From NCBI GenBank assembly GCA_021784895.1, contig JAJYHG010000028.1, positions 1 to 60,431 on the forward strand: 60,431 bases of DNA, written 5' to 3'. This DNA comes from Actinomycetes bacterium. Lineage in GTDB: Bacteria > Actinomycetota > Thermoleophilia > Solirubrobacterales > Solirubrobacteraceae. Position 1 is the stretch's first letter; every line of letters begins with the position of its first letter. The notes beneath the pieces are model-generated. The model was not told the DNA's origin. It did not search any database and saw only the letters and a list, made by a program, of their open reading frames with translations. This document shows positions 5,939-40,276 of this stretch, in pieces. The translations under genes and the position numbers were made by a program.

Positions 5939-6012
<74 letters not shown>

Positions 6013-6015
6013 CTC

Positions 6016-7847: not shown

Positions 7848-7994
7848 CTGCGCAAAGGTTTGCATGCTGGCTCGTCTGTCCCAGGTGAGCCTGTCGCTTG
7901 CTCAGTCGCGCTCGCCCTGGCGGCTTCCACTCGCCCGACCCCGCCGCTAGTCTTGCTGCACGGCGGGTTGAGCCGCGGACGCAACGGAACCGGT

Positions 7995-10413: not shown

Positions 10414-10502
10414 CACCAGTTGAGGTCGCCTGCCGTTCCTCGACGATGCGTACAGCGGAGCAGCCGTGCGGTCCCGCGGGCTGGGCTGGCACTGGCCGGC
10501 CG

Positions 10503-10520
10503 GTCAAACATTTGTCAAAC
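10503..10520 (+). repeat. Type B arm-site pair, left of att copy 2
   Basis: Two GTCAAAC heptamers with an 11-base period lie 120 bases left of att copy 2. The only other such pair I found, with the same period, is at 40277-40294 just right of att copy 3. Confidence 0.6.
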
Positions 10521-10639
10521 GATCGACGCCACACGGGGCGGACTCAGGGCGACCGTGACGGCGTCCGGAGACTCGGAAAGGCTGTAGATATCGGCATTCT
10601 CCGACATCTACCCGCACCAGCCGGACCGTCGAGTCCTGA

Positions 10640-10681
10640 CTCATAACCCGAAGGTCGCAGGTTCGAATCCTGCCCCCGCTA
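10640..10681 (+). repeat. att core copy 2
   Basis: This is an exact 42-bp copy of the tRNA-fMet 3' end. It is not a functional tRNA because the 5' half is missing. A perfect hairpin terminator (10683-10714) follows at once, so this junction may keep the original downstream flank of the tRNA. Confidence 0.93.
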
Positions 10682-10682
10682 T

Positions 10683-10714
10683 GAGAAAAGCCCCGCAAAT
10701 GCGGGGCTTTTCTC
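10683..10714 (+). terminator. Perfect rho-independent-type hairpin after att copy 2
   Basis: Arms GAGAAAAGCCCCGC (10683-10696) and GCGGGGCTTTTCTC (10701-10714) enclose the loop AAAT. The stem ends in a T-rich 3' arm. It is a better version of the hairpin that follows the tRNA itself. Confidence 0.75.
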
Positions 10715-10759
10715 GTCTGTGAGCGTCGAGTTTCGCAGATGAGGCTCGATGTACTCCAT

Positions 10760-10775
10760 CCCGAGTTCCGCAGTT
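10760..10775 (+). repeat. 16-bp inverted repeat flanking the IS pair, left member
   Basis: CCCGAGTTCCGCAGTT at 10760-10775 is the exact reverse complement of 14758-14773. The two copies flank the two IS1634-type elements as a unit. The right copy is also codons near the broken 3' end of the IS21 istA-like gene. Confidence 0.7.
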
Positions 10776-10857
10776 AGTCCGTAGTTCCCCCGTGTGAGGC
10801 GGTGAGATCTGGCTTATTCGCTGGGATCGCGCGGGGTCCGGTGTGTCGGCGTCGTGT

Positions 10858-12600
10858 CTACTTGGTGAGGACTGGCGCGTCGGCTGCGAGTTTCAGCGCT
10901 TGTGCTTGGAGCGGGGTGGGTTGGGTGAGTTTCTCGAACGTGTCGTTGCGGCCCGCGATTCGTGTGCGGTTCCGGGTTTGGGTCGCTAGCTCGGCCAGCA
11001 GCGTTCGGTAGCTGTGTGCGGGGCTGCCGTCGGTGGTGCGTTTGGTTCTGGCCTTGGCGTCGGCTTCGGGTGAGCGGATGGCCTTGGCGACCGGGTCCTC
11101 GCTCTCGGGTCGGTGCTCGTCGGTGAACAACAACGGTTTCCACGCGGCTTTCAAATGCCAGGTCAGGTAGTAGGCCAGCATGCAGATGAACACGTGGGTC
11201 CGGACCCTGGTTTCGAGGTGGTGATGGATTGGGCGGATCTGTAGGTCCGGGCCTTTCAAGGACCGGAACGCGCGCTCGGCTTGTTCGAGGTTTTTGTAGG
11301 CGGCGACGACATCGCCGGTCGGAAGGTCGGTGTCGGTGAGGCTGGTGCGGAGGATGTAGAACCCGTCCAGGGCGGCCTCCTCGTCGATCTGCTGCGTTCG
11401 GCGCTGGTAGGTGAAGCCTGTGTCTGTGATCTGGATGTCGAAGTGTTTTTTGACGTGGAAGCGTTTCAGTGCGGGGCCGACCGCCAGGCCGATCTGGGCT
11501 GAGCCGAGCAGTGTGCCGTTGTCCACCCGCGCCTTGATGGCCTTCAGCTCGTTCTCTGTTGCTTCCAGCAGCTCGGTGCGTTTGCGCGCGCGCTGCGCAC
11601 CGACCAAGGGGTTGCGGCAGACGATCAGCCGCTCCCCTGGGAAGTTCACGGGGTCGGTGATCTCGCCCAGGTTCTGCTGATCGAACAAGGAGGGCTGAAA
11701 CACGCCGTCCTTGACGAGCTTCTTGATCGTCGGGGCCTTCAGCGCGGTGATCCACGACACCCCGCCGGTGACCGTGAGCGTCTCGATGTTCGCTTTGGTG
11801 ACCATCCCTCGATCCGCGACCACGGTGATGTTCTCAAGGCCGTAGCGGTCCTTGATCTTCGTGACCTGCACGGGAAGGGTCTTGTCGTCGTGGGTCTCGC
11901 CGCTGAACACCTCGATCGCGACCGGCCGACCCTCCCGATCACAGAGCAGGCCGTAGACGATCTGGGGCAGGTTCTTCTGACCGTCACGGGAGTACCCGAG
12001 CTTCCCAAGCGGGCAGGCACGCCCCTCGAAATAGCTTGAGGACACGTCATAGAGCACCATCTCCCCATCCCGCAGGTGACGTTTGGCGAGCCGCTCCTCG
12101 ATCAGCTGCTGGCGGCCGGACAGCCAGTCCATCGCGGCATAGAGATCGTCCTCGTCGACGCCCTCGACACCAAGCTCCGAGGCCAATGTCGACTGGCCGA
12201 GCATGCGGACGGTCTGAAGCTTGGACCCGGGCGAGATCACCCTGGAGAGGATCATCGCCATGCACAGATCCCGTCGGCGGGAAGGCCGCGAATCCACAAG
12301 CTCCGCCAACCCCAACCGGCGGGCCATGATCAGCGCGGCGTTCACATGCCCCGCCGGCAGCGCTCGCTCGATCACAAACGCATCCTCGACAGAGACCAGG
12401 CTCTCCCCAGCCAGCACGCGGCGGATCGCCTCGATCGCCTCCGCGGGGAGATAGGACAGGTTCGCGAGCGTCTGCTTCTTGACCTTCCCGTCCTCCCGGT
12501 AGGAGCGCCGCAACAGCGTCGCGGTGTACTCACGATCCCCAGCCCGACGCCTTGTCGTGCTCACATGCATCGCGCCTAACTCTCTAGCAGGACGGCCCAT
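10858..12600 (-). CDS. IS1634-family DDE transposase (copy 1)
   Basis: The start is taken at ATG 12600 (580 residues); ATG 12570 is also possible, and the frame is open to 12699. Landmarks are MVLYDVSSSYFEG (first Asp), GYSRDGQKNLPQIVYGL, ITVVADRGM (second Asp), and in the C-terminal third YKNLEQAERAFRSLK, the YREK/E-type motif of the IS4-related superfamily. The full length suggests an intact enzyme. It catalyses movement of the element 10765-12745. Confidence 0.88.
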   Translation of the reverse strand: MGRPARELGAMHVSTTRRRAGDREYTATLLRRSYREDGKVKKQTLANLSYLPAEAIEAIRRVLAGESLVSVEDAFVIERALPAGHVNAALIMARRLGLAELVDSRPSRRRDLCMAMILSRVISPGSKLQTVRMLGQSTLASELGVEGVDEDDLYAAMDWLSGRQQLIEERLAKRHLRDGEMVLYDVSSSYFEGRACPLGKLGYSRDGQKNLPQIVYGLLCDREGRPVAIEVFSGETHDDKTLPVQVTKIKDRYGLENITVVADRGMVTKANIETLTVTGGVSWITALKAPTIKKLVKDGVFQPSLFDQQNLGEITDPVNFPGERLIVCRNPLVGAQRARKRTELLEATENELKAIKARVDNGTLLGSAQIGLAVGPALKRFHVKKHFDIQITDTGFTYQRRTQQIDEEAALDGFYILRTSLTDTDLPTGDVVAAYKNLEQAERAFRSLKGPDLQIRPIHHHLETRVRTHVFICMLAYYLTWHLKAAWKPLLFTDEHRPESEDPVAKAIRSPEADAKARTKRTTDGSPAHSYRTLLAELATQTRNRTRIAGRNDTFEKLTQPTPLQAQALKLAADAPVLTK

Positions 12601-12661
12601 AGCTGAGTCGCACCATATCACACCCCGTAGTAGTCGTGGGTACATTCTGTGGCAAACAAAA

Positions 12662-12696
12662 AGCCGGGATCCCAACAACCACAAGGAATCCCGGCT
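12662..12696. terminator. Hairpin near the right end of IS1634 copy 1
   Basis: Arms AGCCGGGAT (12662-12670) and ATCCCGGCT (12688-12696), with an A-rich stretch before and after. It probably insulates the transposase from incoming transcription. Confidence 0.5.
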
Positions 12697-12729
12697 CAAA
12701 ACCGGTCGACTACAAGGGGGAACTACCGG

Positions 12730-14760
12730 TTAGTGGGCACGGAACACCGATTTTGGGGCTGAATCGCCTATAAACACTGGGGCTAGGGTCCGCTGAGAAG
12801 CGAAAGGCGTGGGCACACGGCTGACACTGTTTCACTTGTGGTGTCAGCCATTTTGTGCTAGTTCTGTGGGCATGTATCTGCGGACTACGCAGCGGAAGCG
12901 TTCCGACGGGTCAGCGGTCCGGTATCTGCAGCTCGCCCACAACCAGCGGGTGGGCGGGTCGACGCAGGCGAAGGTGTTGTTGAACCTCGGCCGGGAGGAT
13001 CAGCTCGACGTGGACGGGTTGCGTCGGTTGGCGGCGTCGATCACCCGGTTCACCGATGGTGACGGTGCGGCGGGGGTGCTGCCCGGCCGGCCTGGCGAGT
13101 TCGAGGTGACCGCGTCGCGGCCTGTGGGCGGGGTTTGGCTGCTGGACGGGCTCTGGCAGCGGCTCGGGATCGCGAAGGCGCTCGCCGGTGTGCTTGGGTC
13201 CCGCAGGTTCTCAACTGATGTGGAGCGGGTTCTGTTCGCGCTGGTCGCGAACAGGGCGCTGGACCCGTCCTCGAAGCTGGCCGCGGCGGAGTGGGCGTCC
13301 TGTGATGTCGCGATCCCGGGCTTGTTGGGGATGGATGAGGACCAGGCCTACCGGGCGATGGATCTGCTGGTGGACGCAGATACCGACGCGAAGGTGCAGG
13401 AGGCGGTGTTCTTCGCTTGCGCGGACTTGTTGAACCTTGAGGTCGACCTGTTGTTCTTCGACACGACCTCAACGTATTTCGAGCGTGATAAGCCCGACCC
13501 GGCCCTTGGTGATGGTGGTGAGCGGGATCGGGAAGGCGCCGCCGACGCGGGCGGCGGCGCGGCGGTGCAGCGGGCACCGTTCCGTGCTTATGGCCACTCC
13601 AAGGACCACCGTCCTGACCTGCCTCAGATCGTGATCGGCCTCGCGGTCACCAGGGAGGGGATCCCGGTCCGCGTGTGGTGCTGGCCCGGGAACACCTCAG
13701 ACATGAGCGTGATCGGTGAGGTCAAGGACGACATGCGCGGCTGGCGTCTCGGCAGGGTGATCACCGTTGTAGACCGCGGGTTCTCGAGCGATGAGAACCT
13801 GGCCTACCTCACCCGGGCGGGTGGGCACTGGATCGCTGGGAAACGGATGCGCGACGGCGCCAAGGATGTCGCCGAGGCGCTCGCCCGGCCCGGGCGTTAT
13901 CAGCATGTGCGGGACAACCTCCAGGTCAAGGACATCCGTCTCGGCGAGGGCGACAAGCAGAGACGGTTCGTGCTCTGCCACAACCCCCAGGAAGCCGAAC
14001 GGCAGCAGCAGATCCGGGAGAACACGATCACACGCTTGGAGGCCGAACTCGCCCGGATAGATGCCCAACACCAGAAGGCCCAGGCGGCCAAGACCGCCAA
14101 GGCGAAGGCCAGCCAAACCGCTGTGCACTCCAAGGCCGAGTGCGCGCTCCGCGACCATCCCAGCCTGGGGCGTTACCTCCGCCAAACCGCGACGGGCCGG
14201 CTCAAGATCGACCGGGCGAAGATCACGGCCGAGCAGAAGCTGGACGGCAAGTACCTGCTGTCCACCTCAGATCCAGACCTCTCAGCCGAAGACGTCGCGC
14301 TGGGCTACAAGAACCTGCTCGAAGCTGAACGCGGGTTCCGGGACCTCAAAGGCACCCTGGAACTCCGCCCGGTGTTCCACCGCCTTGAGCCTCGCATCCG
14401 CGCGCACGTTCTGATCTGCTGGCTCGCGCTACTGCTGATCCGCGTCGCTGAACGCCAGAGCAGCCAGACGTGGCGACGGATCAGCCTCGAACTCGGACGC
14501 CTGCACCAGGTCACGCTCACCGGCCCGGCTGGCACGGTGCAGCAGACCACGACCCTGACCGCAGCCCAGCAACAGATCTACACCGCGGCCGGCGTCACAC
14601 CGCCACCGAAGATCACCGCGCTCACCCCAGCCTGACCCGCGGCCCACCCGAAACCGGACCCGAAAACAGCCTCACAGCGTGGACACACGGCCACCACGCC
14701 CAAAAACAGCCGAATCACCAGTATTCACGGGCGATTCCGGGATTCCGTGCACCCACCAAC
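12730..14760 (+). mobile_element. IS1634-type insertion sequence (copy 2)
   Basis: The left end reads GTTAGTGGGCACGGAA (from about 12729) and the right end is the complement of GTTGGTGGGTGCACGGAA (to about 14760). A second inner repeat (GAATCGCC, then ACTGG) is at 12761-12780 and its complement at 14719-14737. It carries one transposase gene on the plus strand and truncates the IS21 element to its right. Confidence 0.55.
12872..14635 (+). CDS. IS1634-family DDE transposase (copy 2)
   Basis: The preferred start is ATG 12872 (587 residues, MYLRTTQRKRSDGS). Landmarks are LLFFDTTSTYFE (first Asp), GHSKDHRPDLPQIVIGLAV, ITVVDRGFSS (second Asp) and YKNLLEAERGFRDLKG (Glu motif). An Ala/Lys-rich coiled stretch (about residues 390-425) is inserted before the last catalytic part. 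It is only distantly related to copy 1, so the two elements arrived independently. Confidence 0.88.
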   Translation: MYLRTTQRKRSDGSAVRYLQLAHNQRVGGSTQAKVLLNLGREDQLDVDGLRRLAASITRFTDGDGAAGVLPGRPGEFEVTASRPVGGVWLLDGLWQRLGIAKALAGVLGSRRFSTDVERVLFALVANRALDPSSKLAAAEWASCDVAIPGLLGMDEDQAYRAMDLLVDADTDAKVQEAVFFACADLLNLEVDLLFFDTTSTYFERDKPDPALGDGGERDREGAADAGGGAAVQRAPFRAYGHSKDHRPDLPQIVIGLAVTREGIPVRVWCWPGNTSDMSVIGEVKDDMRGWRLGRVITVVDRGFSSDENLAYLTRAGGHWIAGKRMRDGAKDVAEALARPGRYQHVRDNLQVKDIRLGEGDKQRRFVLCHNPQEAERQQQIRENTITRLEAELARIDAQHQKAQAAKTAKAKASQTAVHSKAECALRDHPSLGRYLRQTATGRLKIDRAKITAEQKLDGKYLLSTSDPDLSAEDVALGYKNLLEAERGFRDLKGTLELRPVFHRLEPRIRAHVLICWLALLLIRVAERQSSQTWRRISLELGRLHQVTLTGPAGTVQQTTTLTAAQQQIYTAAGVTPPPKITALTPA

Positions 14761-15876
14761 TGCGGAACTCGGGTGATGCTTCGGGTCGATGATTGTCTGA
14801 TGCCCCGCGAACACGCGCTGATGCTGCGCCGCTAGCTCTCCGGTGTCCAACACGACCGCCGTGACCAGCGTTTGCGAGACGCGGACCTCGACGCGTCGGC
14901 CGGCGAACGCCGGGTCGACGGAGTAGTCGTTGCGGTCCACACGAATCAGCGGCTGTTGCGGCACGCGGACCACCGCCCGCCGATCGGTGTCGACGCGGAC
15001 GTCGCCGAGCGGTGAGCGCTGCCGCTCCTCGGCGAGCCGGTCCGCCGGCACGGCACGGATCGTGCGATGCTGCCGGCCGTTGGCCTTCTCTGACCAGGCG
15101 TCGAGCTGGTCCTGGAAATCGAGGTGGTTCGCGAAGCTGCGCCGCGGCTCGAAGTTCTTCTCCAGATAATCGTGCTGACGCTCGAGCTGTCCCTTCGCCT
15201 CCGGATCAGCGACGGCGAGAATGACCCACCCGACCTGCAACTGGCCGCAGAACGCAAGGAACGCGGCCGTCGGCTTCCCGCGACCCGCGATCGCTGACTC
15301 CCGGTCCCACACCAGCTTCTCTGGCCGGACGCCGAGCCGGCGCAGGTTCCTCGCAAGACCGGCGAGGATGTCCGGCGCCTCCTTGCTGAACACCAGCGTC
15401 CCAGCGAACGCACGTGACCAGCACAACTGGGTCGTCACCACATAGCCGCGGCGGGTCTGACCCCACCCGACCGGCACATGTTCTGACGGCTCCCACAGAT
15501 CGCACTGCGCGAGCTCCACCGGCCGATAAACAGTCCGCTGATAGGTCCGCTTCGGCGGCTCAAACCGCGGACGAACCTCGCGAACGTACTCGTCGAAGAT
15601 CGTCTTCCCGCCCGCATAGCCCAGCTCGACAGCGTCCTCCCGCAACCGCTGCGCCGTGACCGTCGCATCAGCTCGCAACTGCTCACAGATCCAGTCCTTG
15701 AACGGATCAAGGATCGACCCGGCCGGCGCGCGCGAGTACTTCGGCGGCTGCTCCGCCGCCAACAACCGCGCGACGGTATCCCGAGCGAGCCCCGTCCGCT
15801 TGCAGATCTCCCGGCCCGACAAACGCTCAACGCGCTTCATCCGCCGCACTTCAGCCCACATCTCCACGCCAATCAA
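14725..15876 (-). pseudogene. IS21-family transposase (IstA-like), 3' truncated
   Basis: The open frame gives 383 residues. An N-terminal HTH (SGREICKRTGLARDTVARLL, residues 20-39) is followed by an integrase core with LAQCDLWEP (Asp), LVWDRESAI (Asp) and DPEAKGQLER (Glu). The normal sequence stops near HQTIIDPKH, after which the frame runs into the end of IS1634 copy 2. No istB ATPase gene follows, and IS21 needs it, so the element should not move on its own. Confidence 0.8.
14758..14773 (-). repeat. 16-bp inverted repeat flanking the IS pair, right member
   Basis: This is the exact complement of 10760-10775. It lies at the junction between IS1634 copy 2 and the truncated IS21 transposase gene. 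Confidence 0.7.
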
Positions 15877-15955
15877 CCAGCCTTCCTCCCGTCCGATCCA
15901 TAGATCAAACGAGGGTCACGGCCCGGCCAGACACAACCCGCCGCCGCGCCACGGT

Positions 15956-15992
15956 GGCCTAGTCTTCGAGCGGCGCAGGCGGCCTAGTTTTC
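15956..15992. repeat. IS21 terminal repeats
   Basis: GGCCTAGTCTTC (15956-15967) and GGCCTAGTTTTC (15981-15992) are spaced 25 bases apart upstream of the istA-like gene. IS21 elements carry multiple terminal repeats of this kind at their left end. Confidence 0.55.
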
Positions 15993-16029
15993 ACCCGGCG
16001 CCGACAATGGTTTAGGATCCGTCAGCACG

Positions 16030-16665
16030 ATGACCGCAAAATCACGACACGGTGATCCTCACGCTTCCGATCACGGCAGTGATTCAGTACAGCCGCTGAA
16101 CACACTCGCCTACATCGACAGCGTTCCGTTACTGGCTATCGCCGCCAAATTGGTCGGAAATAGTGTTTCCACTGCTAGCTCTGACGGAGGGAGCATCGGA
16201 TTTCAGTGGGGGGCTACATTCGAAGCACGGGTGCAAGAAAGCCGAGAGATTCAGCGCGACCTGGCGTTGTTTCTGCCTGAGGACTTGATGTATGAAGTCT
16301 ATGGCGCTATTACTCAGCGACACTCGGGCTTGCAACAAGTCAAGGCCAAGCTCACCACCGGGACCGAAGGTGGCTTTCGTCCAGGGAGCGTTGTCTCGAT
16401 CGAGGGGCGGCTCGAACGGCCTGAAGGGGCAGCTGCATGGCAGGCTGAGCGCTTCCATGGTGAAGACGCCCTTGCCGCCCAGCTCGCATCTGACGACCTG
16501 CGACTACAGGTACGAATTCCCCATGCTGCGCGAGAGCAAGCGGACGCTCTTGTCGGCGAGCCGGTAGAGCTCACCGGAATCCTGAGATGGACCCCCGGCT
16601 ATTCCCCAGGAGGGTCAGCAACCTGGAACCTAGCTCTCAGAGCGGTCGCTATCTGGCTGCGATGA
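16030..16665 (+). CDS. Unknown protein, first gene of the radical-SAM operon
   Basis: The product has 211 residues from ATG 16030. There is no signal peptide or membrane segment. It begins with a disordered, His/Ser-rich stretch, then LAYIDSVPLLAIAAKLVG and FQWGATFEARVQESREIQRDL. That start (a Y-hydrophobic-D at the N-terminus, then a channel-less alpha/beta body) faintly recalls DUF6414-type proteins, but I would not assign it. Its stop overlaps the next start (ATGA, 16662-16665), so it is translated together with the methyltransferase. Confidence 0.65.
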   Translation: MTAKSRHGDPHASDHGSDSVQPLNTLAYIDSVPLLAIAAKLVGNSVSTASSDGGSIGFQWGATFEARVQESREIQRDLALFLPEDLMYEVYGAITQRHSGLQQVKAKLTTGTEGGFRPGSVVSIEGRLERPEGAAAWQAERFHGEDALAAQLASDDLRLQVRIPHAAREQADALVGEPVELTGILRWTPGYSPGGSATWNLALRAVAIWLR

Positions 16666-17447
16666 CGGTTGACCGCGAGGTTGCCCTCCACCATGTCCAG
16701 CGGTTGCCAGCATACCTACTCGAAGCAACGCTAACGACGCTGCGCAATCTTCGCGCGCCTTTGCAACCAGCGGTCCCGTCAGACCGTGTCAGGGACTACT
16801 TCGAGGCACGCTCGGGCGACGCTGCTGACAATTTCGATGACTTTGTCGACTCGTCTGGGTCGGACTATGCCTTGCTTTACGCCCGAGCTGGACTCTCCGA
16901 GCGACTGCGGCGCTCAGATCGCGTCGTTGACCTAGGTTGTGGTCGCGCTGGCGTCCTGAAGCGGTCGCCATTTTCAGGTCGAACAGGCCCGCGGTACCTC
17001 GGATTTGACATAGACCGTGTGGCAATAGAAGCTTTGGCAGCGAGCCTGGACGGCGTGGATGGCTCGCGCCAATTTATGAGCGGCTCGTCACTCCTCGATC
17101 TGTGTGCGCATCTGCGCGCCGGCGACATTCTGCTCGCCTCCAACGTGCTGCCCTATTGCGAGGACCTAGAGGCTTCGGGTTTCCTTGCGCTCTGTAGGAT
17201 CGCGCGCGAGGTCCGCGCACCGGTGGTAGTGGTGGACCCACTCCCTGGTGGACCAACTTGGGAGTTGGCTTTCGGTGGCTTGCGGCTGGCGTACCGGACG
17301 CCCGAAGTCGTTCAGGCAGCCATCGAGGCGACTGGTCTGGCTCTTGAATCCCGCACCCGGGCGTATGCGTGTCGGATTCTTGGCAGACTCGTCGTTCCTA
17401 TCTCCTACGCCGCGATATTTTCGCCCCCTACGACCGGAGTGATCTAG
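16662..17447 (+). CDS. SAM-dependent methyltransferase (class I)
   Basis: The start at ATG 16662 overlaps the previous stop, giving 261 residues. RVVDLGCGRAGVL (about residues 88-100) is motif I; YLGFDIDRVAIEAL follows as the acidic loop that binds the ribose of SAM; ILLASNVLPYCED is motif IV-like. It would methylate a small molecule or peptide. Neighbouring GNAT and radical SAM genes point to a tailoring role in the same pathway. The substrate is unknown. Confidence 0.82.
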   Translation: MTVDREVALHHVQRLPAYLLEATLTTLRNLRAPLQPAVPSDRVRDYFEARSGDAADNFDDFVDSSGSDYALLYARAGLSERLRRSDRVVDLGCGRAGVLKRSPFSGRTGPRYLGFDIDRVAIEALAASLDGVDGSRQFMSGSSLLDLCAHLRAGDILLASNVLPYCEDLEASGFLALCRIAREVRAPVVVVDPLPGGPTWELAFGGLRLAYRTPEVVQAAIEATGLALESRTRAYACRILGRLVVPISYAAIFSPPTTGVI

Positions 17448-17450
17448 GAC

Positions 17451-18218
17451 ATGTCGCATTCGTCTCAGGCGCTGATGGCTCATCACGTGCGGTTGCATCT
17501 AGGTGGTTACTTCAGCGAGGACATCGAAATATGCCCGGGTTGGAGGTTTGCCTCATCAGCCGTAGTTCCCGACATCTATTGGAACTACGCCTACTCGACA
17601 AGCGGCGCCTCGATGACCCCAGAGGTTGAGGAAAGCATCCGCACGCACGCCTCGCGCATTTCAAGGAGCCCGGCGTGGTGGCACCCTAGTGAGCCGGGCG
17701 ACCACGCCGACAGCCTGGAAGCCTGGATGATGCTTCGGGACCTTGACGCACTACGCGAGGCGCAGACAACCACCAGTCCATGGCGACTCGCCACGAGCTC
17801 CGTGGCGAACGATGACGTACTCAGTGTGTTTGGCGACGCGTACGGTCCCGAAGGTAGCCCCGATGATGCTGGCTATTTCGAGTTGCCCCCAGCGTACATT
17901 GACGCGCTGAGAGATACGGTCCCCGAGGGCGGAGTCCGAGTCGCGCACACGGTCGCGTATCACGACGGCGAGCCTGTCGGGATTGCGTCCGTTTACCAAG
18001 AGGCGGAGGGTTTCGCTGGCCTTTACAACGTCGGCGTCTCACACGGTTTCCGCCGTCGAGGGGTGGGTTCCGCCGTGTCGGCATCAGCGGTTGCGAGAGC
18101 ACTTGACACCGGCGCAACAGAGGTGATCCTGCAGACGCCAGCATCGTCGCCCGTCGAGTCTCTCTACCGGGCGCTCGGTTTTGAGCGAGTGTTCTGCGGC
18201 GTGCTAGCCGCTCTCTGA
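17451..18218 (+). CDS. GNAT-family acetyltransferase
   Basis: The product has 255 residues and starts 3 bases after the methyltransferase stop. The C-terminal half has VGIASVYQEAEGFAGLYNVG followed by the acetyl-CoA loop FRRRGVGSAVS and SPVESLYRALGFER, standard GNAT motifs. The first 120 residues form an extra N-terminal domain (PGWRFASSAVVPDIYWNYA) seen in some two-domain acetyltransferases. Possible roles are acylation of the pathway product or self-protection. Confidence 0.82.
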   Translation: MSHSSQALMAHHVRLHLGGYFSEDIEICPGWRFASSAVVPDIYWNYAYSTSGASMTPEVEESIRTHASRISRSPAWWHPSEPGDHADSLEAWMMLRDLDALREAQTTTSPWRLATSSVANDDVLSVFGDAYGPEGSPDDAGYFELPPAYIDALRDTVPEGGVRVAHTVAYHDGEPVGIASVYQEAEGFAGLYNVGVSHGFRRRGVGSAVSASAVARALDTGATEVILQTPASSPVESLYRALGFERVFCGVLAAL

Positions 18219-18221
18219 GTT

Positions 18222-18833
18222 GTGCAGACCGTTCGTGGCAGCCGTGAAGCGCTCGTTCTAATGGGAGATTCGAGGCTGCAAGACAGACTGGAATGGCTTT
18301 TCTTGCCGCTCCTTGTAGTCGTCGCGTACGCCGCTAGCCGGGTATCGAGTGTCCTCGATGGTCTTCTCGTGGCCACCTCTCTAGCCGTGGCAGTGAGCGG
18401 GTGGATTTCCTTTCGAGCGGCTGGGCGCTCGATATACAGCGACGGGCTCTTTGCGATAGACGTGTGTCTTCTCCTAGCCTATGCACTGCAGGTGTTTTCA
18501 ATCCCGTCGCTTGGCCGTGCGCACGGTACCGGCTTGTTTTGGGGCGTATCTGCAGCGATCAATCTGCTCTACGCGGGTTGGGATTTTCGGGTGTATGTCG
18601 CGACTCGGTCGGACGGCAAGACGCACCCCGCTGTCTGCGCACAGTTTCTGCGTTTCGGAGTGATAACGCTCGTCTGCGCTCTCTGTTTCGTTGTCGTCGC
18701 CACTATCGAAACCCATCATGGGCCTGACCTCAATGGGGCTGACGTTGCTGGGTTCGCAATTTGGCTGGCTCTGCTGGGAGCCTGGCACGGTGAGCGTCTC
18801 AGGAACATCGCCGGCTCCGGCGCGGACAAATGA
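18222..18833 (+). CDS. Polytopic membrane protein, unknown
   Basis: The product has 203 residues from GTG 18222. Hydrophobic segments lie at about residues 27-42, 47-63, 78-94, 103-120, 145-165 and 172-188, so 5-6 membrane passes are likely. I recognise no family. The gene is sandwiched between the GNAT and radical SAM genes, and its stop overlaps the radical SAM start (ATGA). It could be an exporter-like or membrane anchor component; there is no ATPase partner in the operon. Confidence 0.7.
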   Translation: MQTVRGSREALVLMGDSRLQDRLEWLFLPLLVVVAYAASRVSSVLDGLLVATSLAVAVSGWISFRAAGRSIYSDGLFAIDVCLLLAYALQVFSIPSLGRAHGTGLFWGVSAAINLLYAGWDFRVYVATRSDGKTHPAVCAQFLRFGVITLVCALCFVVVATIETHHGPDLNGADVAGFAIWLALLGAWHGERLRNIAGSGADK

Positions 18834-19810
18834 CACCGGTCAATCCGAGCAATGTCGCGGCCGTTCGCGCGGCTTACGCGGCTGGCGACACTGCTGCGGC
18901 GATAGCGCCCTCCGTCTATGTGGTTGAAGTGACGAACCGCTGCAATGTCAATTGCATTATGTGTCCGCAGAGCTCGATCAATCCTGGTCGGCACCGCGAT
19001 CTCACTACCGAAAGCGCCGTTCGTTTGGCCGACTGGATCGCTCCTTACGCCGAGCTCGTCATGTTGTATTTCATGGGTGAGCCAACTCTGAACGCCGATC
19101 TGGACGAGATCATCGACATCTTTCGGAGTCGGATCGCCGGTCGCCTGGTGCTGAGCACCAATGCGGTAGCGCTCCGCGATGAAGACATCCGTCTACTCAC
19201 CGACGGACGTCTTGACCTCCTTATCGCCTGCATCGATCGTTGGGATGGTGAGGCGTACGAAGGAATCCGTCGCGGCGCGACGTTCGACGAAGTGGTGGCG
19301 AATGTGGAGGCGCTCGCGGCAGAGTGTCGGGCAACGACGACGGAGCTGTTGGTTAAGGCTCTGGACATCAAGATGCCGCTCGAGGAGCGGGAGAGATTCG
19401 TCGTGCATTGGGAGGCACATGGGGCCCGCGCACTAGTTGGGTGGCTCGACACCTGGGCGGGCCAGCGTCCCAATCTTGCGAAGCTGGCCAGCACGAACGC
19501 AGCTCCCTACGCAGCTGAAGAACGCAACGCGTGCGCGGATCTGTGGTTCAAGATGGTGATCAACGTCAATGAGGACGTTGTCCTGTGCTGTCACGACTGG
19601 AATTCGATGACCGTCCTGGGGTCCGCGCTGAGCGGTCAGTCCGTGCATCAGGTCTGGGGAGGGCGGGAACTTCAGCGACTGCGGCAGGAACATGCCCAAC
19701 GCAACTTTGGCTGTCACAAGCTCTGCCGTGGTTGTCGTGAGTGGGGTGAGTTCTCTGAGTTAGACGCTTACCTCAGTACCGACGCCGAGGGTTACTACTT
19801 GGTCTTCTGA
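18830..19810 (+). CDS. Radical SAM protein with SPASM-like C-terminal Cys cluster
   Basis: The product has 326 residues. CNVNCIMC at residues 38-45 is the CX3CX2C motif holding the 4Fe-4S cluster that cleaves SAM. YFMGEPTLN near residue 80 is the GGE-like motif. The C-terminal part has VNEDVVLCCHDW and a CX3CX2C cluster (residues 295-302, CHKLCRGC), as in SPASM auxiliary-cluster domains. SPASM enzymes mature peptides (sactipeptide/PqqE-like) or act on small molecules. Overlap with the membrane-protein gene and a 4-base gap to the next GNAT fix it in the operon. Confidence 0.87.
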   Translation: MTPVNPSNVAAVRAAYAAGDTAAAIAPSVYVVEVTNRCNVNCIMCPQSSINPGRHRDLTTESAVRLADWIAPYAELVMLYFMGEPTLNADLDEIIDIFRSRIAGRLVLSTNAVALRDEDIRLLTDGRLDLLIACIDRWDGEAYEGIRRGATFDEVVANVEALAAECRATTTELLVKALDIKMPLEERERFVVHWEAHGARALVGWLDTWAGQRPNLAKLASTNAAPYAAEERNACADLWFKMVINVNEDVVLCCHDWNSMTVLGSALSGQSVHQVWGGRELQRLRQEHAQRNFGCHKLCRGCREWGEFSELDAYLSTDAEGYYLVF

Positions 19811-19814
19811 GCTG

Positions 19815-20399
19815 GTGGTTGATTCTCGACGGGACCCGGATGGCTCGCTAGTTCGCATTCTGGCCAGCGCTTTCGCCAGCGACGGGCTCTTTCGCTGGCT
19901 TCTTGCCGGTCACGACAACCTCCAAGTAGCGTACGCATGCCGCGCTGCTTTCTTTCGGGACGAGCTTCGGTTTCGGCGAAACACCGGAGCCGTCATCACT
20001 ATTCCTGGTGGTGTCGCGCTACTGGGAATGCCGCCTAATGTGCTGATGCCGGACGATGCGCTCACCGGTCCCACAGCGGAGCTTTGGGACGACCCTGGCG
20101 GTCTCACGAGAGAGCGGTTGAACTACATGGATCTGTTGGCGAGGATGCATCCGCCGACGCCACACGTCTATCTCTCCGCGATCGGCATCACCCCAGCGAT
20201 GCAGCAGAGAGGGTGCGGAACGGTGCTGATGAAACTCGTGTGTGCAGAGGCGGCCCAGCGTGGGCGCGATCTGTATCTCGAGACTGGCAACGATCTCGTC
20301 CCATGGTACGTGCGGTTGGGTTTTCACGTGCTCGGCTCCACAAGCCTGCCATCGGCCGGGCCAACGCTGTACGGAATGGTGAGACCGCCCAACGAGTAG
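19815..20399 (+). CDS. GNAT-family acetyltransferase (last gene of operon)
   Basis: The product has 194 residues from GTG 19815, 4 bases after the radical SAM stop. It has AIGITPAMQQRGCGTVLM (acetyl-CoA loop, QRGCG) and YLETGNDLVPWYVRLGFHV, close to the pattern of the GNAT family that includes puromycin/small-molecule acetyltransferases. A self-resistance or tailoring role is inferred from the operon; the acceptor is unknown. Confidence 0.8.
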   Translation: MVDSRRDPDGSLVRILASAFASDGLFRWLLAGHDNLQVAYACRAAFFRDELRFRRNTGAVITIPGGVALLGMPPNVLMPDDALTGPTAELWDDPGGLTRERLNYMDLLARMHPPTPHVYLSAIGITPAMQQRGCGTVLMKLVCAEAAQRGRDLYLETGNDLVPWYVRLGFHVLGSTSLPSAGPTLYGMVRPPNE

Positions 20400-20789
20400 G
20401 CACCGTCTCGAGTGCCGCTTCGCGGCGACGGATCCGGAATTCCCCGGACGTGGGTAGTTCGGTGGCGGAGGGTGAGATTACGAGAGATCGCTTTGGGCCG
20501 TCGTGGCTTTCGTAACCATGGATTCCGGTTACTGTTGGCCTATCGCGACTCCGAAACACCTCAAGGACGCAAATGCGGGGCTCTTTCGTTCTAGGGGGGC
20601 GATTCCGGTCGCCGGTGTCGCGATGTACTCCGAGCGTGCACTTCAAACTGCGCCGGAGAGGCACCAAGGTCTCCGAGCGTATCCGGCTTCCGATGGTCGC
20701 GGTGACGACTGATCTGTGACCTTGGGCGCGGACGCGGCCGGCGTCTGACGAGTGGAGCCGACTATGCACCCTGGCACGATCGTGATGCC
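20400..20789. other. Intergenic region between radical-SAM operon and nuclease gene
   Basis: No convincing gene. It contains the att-flank relic at 20569-20631. No clear promoter hexamers were recognised ahead of the long gene at 20790. Confidence 0.5.
20569..20631 (+). repeat. Degenerate copy of the tRNA downstream flank
   Basis: GCAAATGCGGGGCTCTTTCG, then TTCTAG, matches the sequence after the tRNA (6026-6052) and after att copy 2 (10695-10714) with small indels. CGATGTACTCC at 20621-20631 also occurs at 10748-10758, at nearly the same distance from the hairpin remnant. The 42-bp att core itself is absent here. Confidence 0.5.
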
Positions 20790-23700
20790 ATGGCTCGCCA
20801 CCGCGTACCCCCCGCCAAGACATTCGTGTCCGGACTGGAGCGCTACGACTCGTGGTCGGTCGCGCGTGGCGCCGCGGCGTTGTCGCTGTGGCCACCCAAC
20901 GCCGATCGCCACGTGGCGCTCAGAGCTCTCGTTGAAACCGTGCCTGCCCTGGCGAACGAGGTCGGTCCGGCCATCGACGCGAAGGATTGGCAGCTGTGGC
21001 TTACGAGCCGCTCGAGCAAGAAGCTTCGAGGGCTCCGCCGGGACGGAACTCATGACGAGCCGATCGCTGTCGACGCTGCGCTGCGCGGACGCCGATACGG
21101 GCTGCTCGCCGGCTCGCTTGAATCTCCGGCCCTCCAGTACAGACTCCTGATCGAAGCGATATGTGCGTGCGATCCCTGCGACGAGGATGAGCGGCTTCTC
21201 GAAGCCGTGAGCCTGCTCGAAGTTGTGGCGCTCCTGTCCGATCGCGTCACCCGACTTGCCGACCTAGGCCGCTGCCGCTGGCCAGATCACTCACTCAAAC
21301 AGAGCATCGGTGTCCCTGACGATGACGAGTATCGGCGCTTGTGTGGAGCACTCACGTTCACTCCGCAAGCCATCGCCGAGGACTCGGACCGCATTGACCA
21401 GCTCGCGCTGCTGGTTGCTGAGCATGGGGACCATCGGTGGAAACCGCTCCGACGAAACGAAGCGACGGGGGAATGGCTGGTCGCCGAGCCGTGGGGCCTT
21501 ACGCAAGCTGGCCTTGTGCGCGCCTACGCGCTTGTCGCTGGTTCAGAGCGCCGCGCCGAAGTACATAGACGGCTCGAAGCTGGAGCGCTTGAGGTAGCCC
21601 GACAGGCCGCGTGCGATATGAGCTGGAAGATCGAGAGGGTCGATGAGCGGTGCACGGTGGCGCTGGCTGACACCGACTGTCGCGTCATGATTTCGGTCGC
21701 GGCGCTACCGCCGGACACGTGGGATCTCGGCGAACCCGAGGTCGAGATCCCTGGCTCGATGATCGACCGACTCCGCGGTGTTGAGACCCAAGCTCGCGAA
21801 CAGCGCGCCCAGCTGACCCTGGCCGCGATGCTCTTTGACGGACGCACCGTCTTCGTTCCGCACGGCCTCGAGCTGTTCGAGGAACCAGATTCGACCGGGG
21901 TGTGGCTGCTCGGCCTCACCGACCTGCGGCTGCTCGGCGACGCTCTGCGCCTCGATCCGCTGGCATTGCCCACCGCACTCGAGCACGCGCCTCCCGCACC
22001 GTGGCCGGAGAACTTCGACGTTGTGGACATCGTCGGCATCGCGCATCGGGCCGAGGCCACGCCACCGGAGCAGCAAGAGATTCCGATGGATGGAACCGAG
22101 CACATGCAATGGAAGGCTCGGTTCATGTCGATGCGGCACTGCGCCCCGGGGGCTGACAACGACGGGTGGGTTGAGGTGTACCGGTGGGCGGGCAGCCCTG
22201 ACGATCGGTGCTTCACGACCGCCAACTCGGATCGGTTCGATCTCCTGGTTCGGCTTCCGGGACTCTCTGTTTGGCTGTTGTGCACTAAGCCGGATGTCGG
22301 GCCTCACGATCTCGAAGCATTCATTTGCCGCGTGCTGGGTCTATGGCTGACTCGAATGGCCGACCGCGGTTTCCCGGAGTTGTCCGAGCCCGTCGGCGTC
22401 GAGGTCGCTGCGCGGATCGATATCGAGTTCACCGAGCTGCCTGGCCCGGCGCTCGCGATCAAGCACCGCGACCATTACGCGACCCTTGTGCTCGGACCAG
22501 GCTTCGTCCACGCGCTCTGCCGGGGAGACAACGTCGCCGACCGCATGTTGATTGCCGCGGTCCTCGACGCTCTGGCAGACAGGAGCGCGGATCAGCGCCG
22601 TGAGTTCGTCGACACGCTCGCGCCTCTGGGAACCGCGACAGCCGGGATCTGGCCCTACCCCTCGTTGCGTAGCAATCCCCCGGTGATTGGTTCGCCGCCC
22701 TTGGTGCTACGCCGTGACCGTTTGGCGGTGGGGCGCGAGCTCGCATCTAGTCGCGTCAGCCCAGACACGATCGTTGTGTTGCAGGGACCCGAGTCTGCCA
22801 GTGCTCTGAACGACCTTGCAGTCGAACTTGAGCGCCTCCTGGCGAACCGAGTCACAGACCTTCGACCCGACTGCTTGTTGGAGCTCATCGAACTGCACGA
22901 AGCAGCGGCGATTCAGAACGCGAGCGAGGAAATGGGCTTGCCGGCGCGTGCCGCCATGACCGGCGCGGAATCGCACTTCGGTAAGCGTGAATCGACCGGC
23001 GAGCGCAATGTCGCACTTCGCGCGTTGATCGAACGTGCTGCGGCGAGCCGGCCACAGGGGGATCGGAAGCTCGGGCTACGTGAGGCAGGCTGGCTGCGTG
23101 CCGCAGCCGAATTGCAGGTGAGGCTCGGCGGCGTCTCGGAGTTTTTGTTGAGCGGCAGAGCGGACGCGCGGATTCTGGTCGGGCCTAGCGTCGGGGTCGA
23201 GGCGATTGTGGACGGAGATCTACCTGCTGCTACGGAACTGTTTCTCGCGCAGGTGGAGGAGGCGGCGCCGGAACTGATGTACCAGGAGTACCACGATTGG
23301 TGGAGCGCCGATCCCCGAGAGCCGACCGAGATGGCGGTTGACGAACCGATTGAACTTCACGAGCTGGTCTGGCAAGGACTGGACGATGCTTTCCTCGATC
23401 ACCAGCACGTTCGATTCGAAGAGCTTCTCCGGCTTTTCAAGGCACTCAGTCAGCTCGCCGAGCGCCAGGACAACAACGTCGGGGTCTCAGGGGTTGCCGA
23501 GCTCGTGACCACGCTGGTTGAGATGACGAAGATCGCCCGCTCCCGCGTCCATGCTGCCGTCGATCTCGCCACACTCGGCCCGGCCGAGTACAGCGCCATC
23601 CACGGCGACAATCGGCCATGGCGCTCAAACCGCGAGCGTTCGTACCTGCGTCGGCCGCTCGTCGACCTAGGCGACGGCCGGCTGGCCTGGTCAAGCACGC

Positions 23701-24254
23701 ACGTCCTCATCGCCAGCCGGAATCTGTACAAGCTCATCGAAGCAGGGCGTCTCCGTTGCCAAGGAACGCTCGCGAAGGCCGTGATGAAGGTGTCCCAGCA
23801 GCTCGACAACGAATTCGAGCAGGCCGTGATCCAGAGAGTCAGGGAAGCTGGTTGGCAGGCATGCCCGCGGGTCAGGAAGATTGCCGGGGTCTGGCTACAG
23901 CGCGAGGGGCCTACCGGCCCGGACCAGATCGGCGACATCGATGTCCTTGCCTGGCACCAGGGGTACCGGCACGTCTGGCTGCTTGAGACAAAGCGGCTGG
24001 CGCCGGGCCTGATCGCGGACTCGATGCTGCGTGACGCTGAGAAGCTCGAGGAGAGCCAGCCCCATCAACGTGAACGTCTGCAGTGGGTGCTGTCGCATCT
24101 CGACGAGCTTTCGGAGCATCTCGAGGTCGATTGCAGGGACTGGTCGGTCGCGTCGGCGACGATCATCGACAGCCCGCTAGTAGGCGCGCACCTAGCGAAC
24201 GTCGATGTGCCGATTTGGACTTTCCGCGAGCTCCCGCACCGACTCGCCGTTTGA
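20790..24254 (+). CDS. Large unknown protein with C-terminal PD-(D/E)XK nuclease-like domain
   Basis: The product has 1154 residues from ATG 20790. Most of it has no recognised domain, no membrane segment and no Walker motif. Near the C-terminus, GPDQIGDIDVLAW is followed by HVWLLETKRLA. Asp1051, then Glu1066 and Lys1068, reproduce the D-X(n)-E-X-K catalytic signature of restriction-endonuclease-like folds, preceded by a helical stretch with FEQAVIQRVREAGW as in NERD- or Mrr-type nucleases. A defence function is inferred from the nuclease and the island context. It is followed by a small gene 213 bases downstream on the same strand. Confidence 0.72.
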   Translation: MARHRVPPAKTFVSGLERYDSWSVARGAAALSLWPPNADRHVALRALVETVPALANEVGPAIDAKDWQLWLTSRSSKKLRGLRRDGTHDEPIAVDAALRGRRYGLLAGSLESPALQYRLLIEAICACDPCDEDERLLEAVSLLEVVALLSDRVTRLADLGRCRWPDHSLKQSIGVPDDDEYRRLCGALTFTPQAIAEDSDRIDQLALLVAEHGDHRWKPLRRNEATGEWLVAEPWGLTQAGLVRAYALVAGSERRAEVHRRLEAGALEVARQAACDMSWKIERVDERCTVALADTDCRVMISVAALPPDTWDLGEPEVEIPGSMIDRLRGVETQAREQRAQLTLAAMLFDGRTVFVPHGLELFEEPDSTGVWLLGLTDLRLLGDALRLDPLALPTALEHAPPAPWPENFDVVDIVGIAHRAEATPPEQQEIPMDGTEHMQWKARFMSMRHCAPGADNDGWVEVYRWAGSPDDRCFTTANSDRFDLLVRLPGLSVWLLCTKPDVGPHDLEAFICRVLGLWLTRMADRGFPELSEPVGVEVAARIDIEFTELPGPALAIKHRDHYATLVLGPGFVHALCRGDNVADRMLIAAVLDALADRSADQRREFVDTLAPLGTATAGIWPYPSLRSNPPVIGSPPLVLRRDRLAVGRELASSRVSPDTIVVLQGPESASALNDLAVELERLLANRVTDLRPDCLLELIELHEAAAIQNASEEMGLPARAAMTGAESHFGKRESTGERNVALRALIERAAASRPQGDRKLGLREAGWLRAAAELQVRLGGVSEFLLSGRADARILVGPSVGVEAIVDGDLPAATELFLAQVEEAAPELMYQEYHDWWSADPREPTEMAVDEPIELHELVWQGLDDAFLDHQHVRFEELLRLFKALSQLAERQDNNVGVSGVAELVTTLVEMTKIARSRVHAAVDLATLGPAEYSAIHGDNRPWRSNRERSYLRRPLVDLGDGRLAWSSTHVLIASRNLYKLIEAGRLRCQGTLAKAVMKVSQQLDNEFEQAVIQRVREAGWQACPRVRKIAGVWLQREGPTGPDQIGDIDVLAWHQGYRHVWLLETKRLAPGLIADSMLRDAEKLEESQPHQRERLQWVLSHLDELSEHLEVDCRDWSVASATIIDSPLVGAHLANVDVPIWTFRELPHRLAV

Positions 24255-25216: not shown

Positions 25217-26062
25217 TTAACTCAGCAGCGCATCAATGAACTGAGCGACGGCCGCAACGGCCGTCGCTCGGAGCTGCGGCTCGAGCATGCTGGGATCGAC
25301 AAGCAGACTCTGCGATGCGAACCCGGCTGGGCCCTGGCTGGACGTGCCGAAGAACCGCGCGCGGATCTCTTGAAAGGTCGATCGGAGCGGTTCAATGTGC
25401 GCCGCGAGATCACCCGATCCGAGCTGATTGGCAGCCTCCGATGGGCCGCCAGCGCGGTTGTAGAGGAGCACGAAGACCAGGTCGTAGTAGTCCTTTTCTG
25501 CGCCTCGTTGTCGGGCTGCGACCGATTTCGACAGGAGGTATCCCTCGAGACCCGCGAACCGGGCCCTGACCCGGACCTGACCGTGAGCTTCCAGCTCGGC
25601 CGTGAGCTCTCGCCACACCCAGTCTTGCGTGACATAGCCGGTGCCGCGGAGGTTCATCGCTCGCAGGGTTGCGCAGCCAGCAAGCGGGATCAGCGCTTCG
25701 GTTCGCTCGGTCTCGAGGTCACAGAGGAACTCGAGTTTCATCGCGATTCCGTCGATGGTTCCGCGCCATCGCCAGCCGCCTTGCCCAGGTATGGGCTTGA
25801 AGCCCGTTGCGGTCAACGCTCGCTCGAGTTCGACCATTTCAACGCGTGAGTCGAGATGGGCGGCGACAAGCATGTCGACATCCGTCGTGCCGAGGTGTGT
25901 GGGGCCGGCTTCGTGACCTTCGGTCAGGACCTCGGGCAGCAAGCCACCGAGGACGATCAGCGGGATGTCCTCATTGTCGAGGCGATGCACGAGCGTGACG
26001 AGTGCCTTCTCGGCACGTGCTCGTCCCGCCGGGGATCTGTCCTCCTCGAGATCAGCGGACAC
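25217..26062 (-). CDS. AbiEii-like nucleotidyltransferase (toxin candidate)
   Basis: The product has 281 residues. PLIVLGGLLPEVL, then LGTTDVDMLV (residues 36-67), is the GG...TXDXD signature of the nucleotidyltransferase fold. KDYYDLVFVLLYN is a later motif typical of AbiEii-type proteins. It begins 14 bases after the gene for the AbiEi-like fusion (26077-27882) on the same strand, the type IV antitoxin-toxin order. A toxin role is inferred. The sequence is far from the classic AbiEii at 29743-30636. Confidence 0.72.
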   Translation of the reverse strand: MSADLEEDRSPAGRARAEKALVTLVHRLDNEDIPLIVLGGLLPEVLTEGHEAGPTHLGTTDVDMLVAAHLDSRVEMVELERALTATGFKPIPGQGGWRWRGTIDGIAMKLEFLCDLETERTEALIPLAGCATLRAMNLRGTGYVTQDWVWRELTAELEAHGQVRVRARFAGLEGYLLSKSVAARQRGAEKDYYDLVFVLLYNRAGGPSEAANQLGSGDLAAHIEPLRSTFQEIRARFFGTSSQGPAGFASQSLLVDPSMLEPQLRATAVAAVAQFIDALLS

Positions 26063-38708: not shown

Positions 38709-39914
38709 TCAACTCGAGGCGTCGAGCGCCTTGGTGAACAGGTCCGCCTGCTGCTTGGCGTCCTTGGCGTGCAGGTAGATCATCGTCGTCTGGATCTGCG
38801 CGTGGCCCATCGCCTGCTGGATATCGACCAGGTTCACGTTGCCGGCAGCAAGGAGAGACCCGAAGCTGTGGCGGAGGTCATGCACGCGAAGCGGGTCCAG
38901 GCCGGCGGCGGCGACGGCTTTCTTGTAGCGCTCGCGTAGCGCCGAGTCGTCGATCCGCCGTCCGATCGCGTTGCAGAACACCAGGTCTCCCGCGGATGTG
39001 AAGTGCTCGCGTTCGGAGAGTCGCCGGAGTGCATCGGCCGCTTGCTGGGGCAGCCCGAAGTCGCGGTTGCGGCGGCTCTTGGTGCCCGCACGCTCAACAC
39101 CGGCCGACAGGCTACGGCTCACAACGAGTGCAGAACGGTTCCAGTCGATGTCTCGCCACCGCAGCTCCCGCAGTTCTCCCAGCCGCAGGCCGGTGTATGC
39201 GGCGATGCGGATCATCTCGGCGTCGCGTCTGTCGCTCTCGATGTCCCACACAGACCGTGGGGGGCGCCCCCGCCACGCGCCTGACTGAAGGGCGGTCGCG
39301 ATCGCCTCGACGTCCGCCGCCTTGTAATAGGCGAGCGGCTTGCGTGGGGGCAGCGTCCGGCGGTGGGCAGCTCTGACGGGGTTGCGTGGAAGGTCGAACC
39401 CGTTGCCCTCCTTCATGCCGTAGTTGAACACGGCCGAGAGGATCTGGCGGTATCGCGTCACCGTCTTGGCTGACACGCCCGTCTCCGCGATGGCGCTGAG
39501 CAGATCGTTGATCTCCAACGTCGAGATCTCGGCCGCCGGACGGTTCCCGAGCGCCTTCATGATGTGACCAGCCGTTACGCCCGGACCGCCACGCCCTCGG
39601 GAGAACGGGACGCCCGGCTCAGCAAGATCCGAGCGGTAGCCGCGCAGCGTCGCAGGCGTCGCGTCCTTGACCTGCTCGAGCCACCGCAGATACGAGTGCG
39701 CGACCTCGCGGAAGGTTGGACCGTGGAGCTTGCGCTCCTTCTCCCGGCGCTCGCGCGCCTCCTCCCCGGAGACGAACCTCTCAACAATCTCGGCTGCCCT
39801 GATGTGCGCCTGGCCCTCGGTCAGATGGGTATCGGGCTTGCCCTTCGCGCCGCGGGCGATGTAGCCGCCAGAGCTGTCCGGCTTGACCCACGCACGCCCG
39901 ACACGGCGACGCAC
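38709..39914 (-). CDS. int: Tyrosine-type site-specific integrase
   Basis: The open frame gives 401 residues from GTG 39914. The catalytic set is visible: Arg in AAYTGLRLGELR, His345/Arg348 in HDLRHSFG, His371 in AMGHAQ and Tyr380 in MIYLH. Upstream codons in the same frame still look like the N-terminal arm-binding domain (GSFFYDAVFRYDGRQVRRRV) but run into a stop near 40020 with no ATG, GTG or TTG; an ATG at 40018 is in a different frame. So the start is unclear and a frameshift there is possible. It lies 248 bases from att copy 3 and should have driven insertion at tRNA-fMet. Confidence 0.86.
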   Translation of the reverse strand: MRRRVGRAWVKPDSSGGYIARGAKGKPDTHLTEGQAHIRAAEIVERFVSGEEARERREKERKLHGPTFREVAHSYLRWLEQVKDATPATLRGYRSDLAEPGVPFSRGRGGPGVTAGHIMKALGNRPAAEISTLEINDLLSAIAETGVSAKTVTRYRQILSAVFNYGMKEGNGFDLPRNPVRAAHRRTLPPRKPLAYYKAADVEAIATALQSGAWRGRPPRSVWDIESDRRDAEMIRIAAYTGLRLGELRELRWRDIDWNRSALVVSRSLSAGVERAGTKSRRNRDFGLPQQAADALRRLSEREHFTSAGDLVFCNAIGRRIDDSALRERYKKAVAAAGLDPLRVHDLRHSFGSLLAAGNVNLVDIQQAMGHAQIQTTMIYLHAKDAKQQADLFTKALDASS

Positions 39915-40161: not shown

Positions 40162-40203
40162 CTCATAACCCGAAGGTCGCAGGTTCGAATCCTGCCCCCG
40201 CTA
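40162..40203 (+). repeat. att core copy 3
   Basis: This is an exact 42-bp copy of the tRNA-fMet 3' end. The three following bases (CTC) match the tRNA copy but not copy 2. It forms the right end next to the integrase and perhaps the left end of a further element. Confidence 0.93.
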
Positions 40204-40276
40204 CTCACGAACTCCCTGGAAATCTCGGGGAAAGCAGAGCCTCGGAGATCCGGGGCTCGCTTTGTTTCAGGGGTTT

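Follow-up and report, generated by a model that had tools for sequence, protein, structure and literature searches.

BtrN, the 2-deoxy-scyllo-inosamine dehydrogenase of the butirosin pathway, combines a radical S-adenosylmethionine (SAM) barrel with a twitch domain, a shortened form of the SPASM domain that has a single auxiliary cluster; this cluster is held by four cysteines in BtrN, which oxidises an aminocyclitol (PMC9012708). Puromycin N-acetyltransferase is a known self-resistance enzyme that acetylates the product (PMC11641026), and the three-gene thmABC cluster of Photorhabdus, responsible for 4'-thiothymidine, shows that a radical-SAM natural-product cluster can be very small and carry a resistance gene of its own (PMC12691670). 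Here, we describe a six-gene operon (genes A to F, 4.4 kb; Table 1) in a 60,431-nucleotide stretch of DNA (the window; contig JAJYHG010000028.1) from a member of the Solirubrobacteraceae, class Thermoleophilia. Gene E encodes a BtrN-like radical SAM enzyme, and genes C and F encode two GNAT acetyltransferases, GNAT1 and GNAT2. The partner genes of thmABC differ from those of this operon, and the likeness drawn between the two is one of cluster type.

The region from 16030 to 20399 is tiled by six open reading frames (ORFs), all on the forward strand. Genes A and B share an ATGA (4-base overlap), as do D and E, while 3 nt separate B from C, 3 nt separate C from D and 4 nt separate E from F; these coordinates confirm the tightly packed same-strand operon read in the initial annotation. 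The forward strand holds six stretches of 190 codons or more without a stop and the reverse strand none, compared to an average of 0.68 for both strands together in shuffles of the same bases. Codon-position G+C was coding-like in B to F (0.63-0.69 at third positions, GC3, and lowest at second positions) and weaker in A (GC3 0.57), making A the least certain of the genes. The packing of the six genes is consistent with co-transcription. No terminator-like site was detected on the forward strand of the operon region, and no significant RNA fold followed gene F.

The sequence of E matched the Pfam families Radical_SAM (7e-18) and PF13186, 'SPASM' (5e-8), the second match covering residues 235-302 only. 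We aligned E with 17 homologues from Thermoleophilia, Omnitrophota, Veillonellaceae, Azospirillum, Solidesulfovibrio and one genome of the phylum sampled for an Acidobacteria locus. Only seven cysteines were invariant in 17/17 homologues: C38, C42 and C45, which form the CX3CX2C motif of the radical cluster in the barrel, and C235, C253, C299 and C302. None of the aligned sequences, E included, carries a cysteine downstream of C302. Because three plus four cysteines are invariant and none lies beyond C302, conservation identifies the C-terminal set of E as a twitch domain with a single auxiliary cluster. A full SPASM domain, with two clusters and about seven C-terminal cysteines, was rejected, since only four are conserved in this region; the initial annotation had taken E for a SPASM enzyme of the kind associated with peptides, and this assignment is replaced by the twitch domain. 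A phmmer search of E against all PDB chains returned BtrN first, in two collinear pieces corresponding to the barrel and the C-terminal twitch region, and in this alignment the four auxiliary-cluster cysteines of BtrN fall on C235, C253, C299 and C302. Foldseek, run with an AlphaFold2 (AF2) model of E built from five sequences (pLDDT 72.5, pTM 0.78, with a low-scoring C-terminal region), also ranked BtrN at the top, followed by the peptide enzymes SuiB, CteB and SkfB together with viperins, and by BlsE, DesII and SpeY at lower positions. This fold ranking is suggestive and not decisive, because query-normalised TM-scores were about 0.4-0.6 throughout.

The genomic surroundings of most of the E relatives that we inspected suggest glycan and amino-sugar chemistry. 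At seven loci (L024, L025, L026, L031, L032, L023 and L137) the neighbours include DegT aminotransferases, WbqC, methyltransferases, glycosyltransferases and nucleotide-sugar epimerases, as well as an aldo/keto reductase, a carbamoyltransferase and B12-radical SAM proteins. These relatives are uncharacterised radical SAM/twitch proteins that align with E over the full length at about 23-32% identity and have the seven cysteines in common with it; examples are the protein of the Solidesulfovibrio plasmid pDCAR1, which adjoins DegT, a methyltransferase and WbqC, and those of L024 and L026 in Thermoleophilia. They differ from E in their partners, since none of those inspected is accompanied by the GNAT, membrane protein and GNAT set, and glycosyltransferases or aminotransferases adjoin them instead. 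The Veillonellaceae locus L032, where two adjacent twitch-type radical SAM genes (9986-10978 and 11037-12035) are neighboured by genes for a DegT aminotransferase and an epimerase and by an ATP-grasp-like gene, offers a promising starting point for studying what reactions this branch of twitch enzymes performs.

Both GNATs and the methyltransferase B have intact motif residues. GNAT1 gave a Pfam GNAT match at 1.4e-10 and a PDB match to 4ius, and its relatives at about 30% identity over 97% of the length lie inside hydroxamate-siderophore clusters on two Chelatococcus plasmids, beside a lysine/ornithine hydroxylase. The Chelatococcus proteins are full-length relatives, but the siderophore context is absent around GNAT1. 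GNAT2 matched Acetyltransf_1 (7.5e-6), and its best solved relative is puromycin N-acetyltransferase (PDB 7k09, 6.4e-8), with which the C-terminal half alone aligns; GNAT2 scored under every NCBIfam equivalog cut-off.

Taken together, we favour, at somewhat less than an even chance, the reading that this is a compact mobile operon tailoring a small, polar, amine-bearing molecule of the amino-sugar, aminocyclitol or nucleoside type, and not a peptide. Small-molecule chemistry, which the initial annotation had left as one option, is preferred because of the BtrN-like twitch domain and the glycan and amino-sugar surroundings of the relatives of E. In this proposal, the 5'-deoxyadenosyl radical generated by E would remove one hydrogen from the substrate at a carbinol carbon, and the single auxiliary [4Fe-4S] cluster would accept the electron, giving a ketone (a BtrN-like dehydrogenation) or, if hydrogen were returned, an epimer. 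Methylation on oxygen or nitrogen by B would then follow, and C would acetylate or otherwise acylate an amine. The final acetyltransferase, F, could protect the cell by acetylating the product, a role in self-resistance suggested by analogy with puromycin N-acetyltransferase, or could add a second acyl group, and retention or export of the product may fall to D. What the data show directly is how the genes are laid out, which enzyme classes they encode, that the motifs are intact, that the cysteine set of E is of the twitch type, that its relatives lie in glycan clusters and that the operon is on an island; we infer the substrate, the order of the steps, what A, D and F do, and the joint action of all six genes.

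Several observations weigh against this proposal. The operon contains no scaffold enzyme (DegT, glycosyltransferase or nonribosomal peptide synthetase), so that the substrate would have to come from elsewhere or upstream genes have been lost. The similarity of E to BtrN, itself part of a full aminoglycoside cluster, is weak (31.5 bits, with about 18% of residues identical when the structures are aligned), and the peptide-modifying SuiB, CteB and SkfB come close behind BtrN in the fold search. The relative of E on an Azospirillum plasmid is an exception in lying outside any glycan cluster, and the plasmid relatives of GNAT2 that we inspected are free-standing GNATs with no biosynthetic link. 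Lastly, no second locus was found in the samples searched, so it is the packing that argues for a shared function.

A bolder form of the small-molecule reading, which we consider improbable, is that the six genes make up a complete, self-sufficient mini-cluster whose product would be an amino-sugar or nucleoside metabolite, so far undescribed, that is oxidised by radical chemistry, methylated and N-acetylated; the mini-cluster would include its own self-protection and travel as chemical-warfare cargo on an island at tRNA-Met. In that case, islands of Thermoleophilia, an under-studied class, would carry compact small-molecule pathways beside restriction and toxin-antitoxin genes. Twitch-type radical SAM enzymes recur in the glycan clusters seen here, yet the closest enzyme of solved structure is BtrN, a distant relative. 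With 4.4 kb for a twitch enzyme, a methyltransferase and two acetyltransferases, the operon could be transferred whole to a laboratory host, where the kind of substrate that this branch of enzymes uses could be tested directly.

The main rivals are a cell-surface glycan cassette and a remnant of a larger cluster. In the former, which is unlikely but deserves serious consideration, E, B, C and D would alter the cell surface by oxidising, methylating and N-acetylating a sugar in a wall polymer or exopolysaccharide, which could, for instance, hinder phage adsorption. The position of most inspected E relatives in polysaccharide or O-antigen-like clusters points in this direction, as do the membrane protein D and the restriction and AbiE-type genes elsewhere on the island, but the operon lacks a glycosyltransferase, flippase or polymerase, F resembles an antibiotic-detoxifying acetyltransferase, and no such cassette appeared in the other genomes sampled. 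The remnant explanation, which we regard as doubtful, holds that the upstream genes of a larger biosynthetic cluster were cut by an element of the IS21 type and that what is left may be unexpressed, or non-functional alone. The end of this element maps to about 16006 and leaves 23 bp to the start of gene A (homologous copies in relatives stop at query base 605-608), so the operon is possibly truncated at its 5' side, with its original promoter and upstream genes possibly lost. Three transposase genes are stacked at 10858-15876, the G+C content of the operon is 0.60 compared to about 0.65 for the island and about 0.70 for the flank, and no sigma-70-like promoter was matched in 15800-21000, although consensus scans of this sort are weak for Actinomycetota. 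On the other side, all six frames are intact and a plausible ATG has been kept at the start of A.

Two further explanations carry less weight. A system for a ribosomally synthesised and post-translationally modified peptide (RiPP), with E acting on a peptide encoded elsewhere, B methylating it and C and F acetylating it, appears very improbable. The PF13186 match and the fold likeness to SuiB, CteB and SkfB speak for it, and both GNATs and methyltransferases are known from RiPP clusters. However, E has a single auxiliary cluster and its relatives lie in sugar clusters. We detected no RiPP recognition element in any of the six proteins with Pfam or NCBIfam and no peptidase or ABC transporter in the operon; there is no room for a precursor peptide between the genes, and within the operon and its flank the small frames of the sole extragenic space (20400-20789) look arbitrary. 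The absence of these components had been noted in the initial annotation and is borne out here. We give slightly less credence still to a module for defence, viperin-like for instance, whose target would be nucleotides or RNA. Restriction and AbiE-type genes lie nearby, B has weak matches to rRNA and tRNA methyltransferase models, viperin structures occur among the fold matches, and E gave weak pVip matches (24 bits), but these matches span the common radical SAM barrel only, and the other five genes have no PADLOC match. Viperins, MoaA-like radical SAM enzymes, are not known to have an auxiliary cluster, whereas E has four extra invariant cysteines; with the cysteines of an auxiliary cluster present and a pVip score of only 24 bits, the identification of E as a viperin was rejected.

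We searched for the operon in samples of about 250-400 genomes each, and in plasmids, phages and viral contigs. No orthologue of E was found in 299 genomes of the class, where the best match was a Thermoleophilia homologue at 31% identity, in 396 genomes of the phylum (nothing stronger than 1e-38), in 247 genomes of the phylum of the Acidobacteria locus (best 32% identity), or in 269 genomes of the phylum of a Rhodospirillaceae locus, a scan run without a positive control. A genome_contigs scan with a two-sequence pattern, insensitive to distant relatives, again returned the known 31% homologue as its best match, and a five-sequence alignment was too divergent for such a scan. Plasmids, phages and viral contigs held nothing above 32% identity over the length of E. 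Genes A, B and D gave no convincing match in the 299 class genomes and none in plasmids or viral contigs, and GNAT1 gave none in the 396 phylum genomes at 1e-14 and none in viral contigs. As far as searched, there is no orthologous operon, and the combination is new while its parts are of known kinds; absence elsewhere is not proven, given the sampling of genomes, the insensitive pattern and the one scan without a positive control. The initial annotation had taken the packing to mean a single pathway: the packing stands, and the pathway is unproven, the gene order having been seen in no second genome of these samples; lack of conservation of the order elsewhere was the refuting condition named in that annotation, and judged by it the claim is not confirmed. 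Overall, the observation it reported is confirmed and its interpretation is partly supported.

The remaining genes of the operon are less informative. The structure prediction proposed for the protein of gene A was run, and the single-sequence AF2 model was uninformative (pLDDT 34); a beta/alpha pattern in the C-terminal half loosely suggests an OB-like domain, which is not established. Gene B has a weak match to Methyltransf_23 (0.0014), with its DLGCG motif intact, and the start listed in Table 1 is most likely, a longer in-frame start at 16587 (79-base overlap with A) being less so. Gene D had no family match at a credible score in Pfam, and an internal ATG at residue 14 is a possible alternative start.

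Table 1. Features of the operon and of the island that carries it (window coordinates).
Feature	Coordinates	Strand	Description
Gene A	16030..16665	+	211 aa; no family match at credible score
Gene B	16662..17447	+	261 aa; class I SAM methyltransferase; VVDLGCG motif
Gene C (GNAT1)	17451..18218	+	255 aa; N-terminal extension and GNAT; acetyl-CoA motif RRRGVG
Gene D	18222..18833	+	203 aa membrane protein; GTG start; four clear hydrophobic segments (hydropathy)
Gene E	18830..19810	+	326 aa; predicted radical SAM/twitch enzyme (Pfam, BtrN alignment, homologue conservation)
Gene F (GNAT2)	19815..20399	+	194 aa; GTG start; puromycin-N-acetyltransferase-like GNAT; acetyl-CoA motif QQRGCG
tRNA-Met(CAT)	5939..6013	+	ARAGORN; 3' part, 5971-6015, is the left attachment repeat
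Second tRNA-Met 3' repeat	10640..10681	+	First 42 nt of the 45-nt repeat, exact
Right attachment repeat	40162..40206	+	45 nt identical to the tRNA-Met 3' end
Tyrosine-recombinase integrase	38709..39914	-	Phage_integrase 4e-33; PHROG integrase
IS21-family transposase (istA type)	14725..15876	-	rve/Mu-transpos_C_2

The operon lies on an integrative island at a tRNA site, with the 3' end of the tRNA repeated at the far end beside a tyrosine recombinase. The attachment repeats, the integrase and the restriction and AbiE-type neighbours agree with the earlier description of a mobile island next to defence genes. The second repeat divides the island into 4.7 kb on the left and 29.5 kb on the right. 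In related genomes, partial tRNA-Met repeats also occur near the full-length tRNA-Met gene (e.g. G127, G139, G163, G175 and G664), several genomes having 1-2 partial copies within about 3-52 kb of it, and tRNA-Met looks like a recurrent integration site or hotspot.

Further cargo of the island includes an Eco57I/PglX-like methylase, AbiE-type genes and a large Upx-like protein. The DNA methylase and the familyless 291-aa protein that precedes it (together at 7860-10413, forward strand) lie in the 4.7-kb mini-island between the first two tRNA repeats. The Upx-like protein (1154 aa; 20790-24254, forward strand) begins 390 bp past the operon; it has no Pfam family, matches Upx weakly towards the C-terminus (E 1e-4) and is a possible defence nuclease. 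An AbiEii/AbiEi-type pair with strong PADLOC matches lies at 29743-31460 on the reverse strand. A second AbiEi_2-like protein of 601 aa (26077-27882) adjoins a 281-aa protein with no Pfam match (25217-26062), which may be its partner. Two pairs of diverged direct repeats, 29709-30008/52398-52697 (87%) and 31927-32140/56566-56779 (85%), retain a common order at a spacing of about 23-25 kb, and may stem from an ancient duplication or mark another, related element on the right-hand side.

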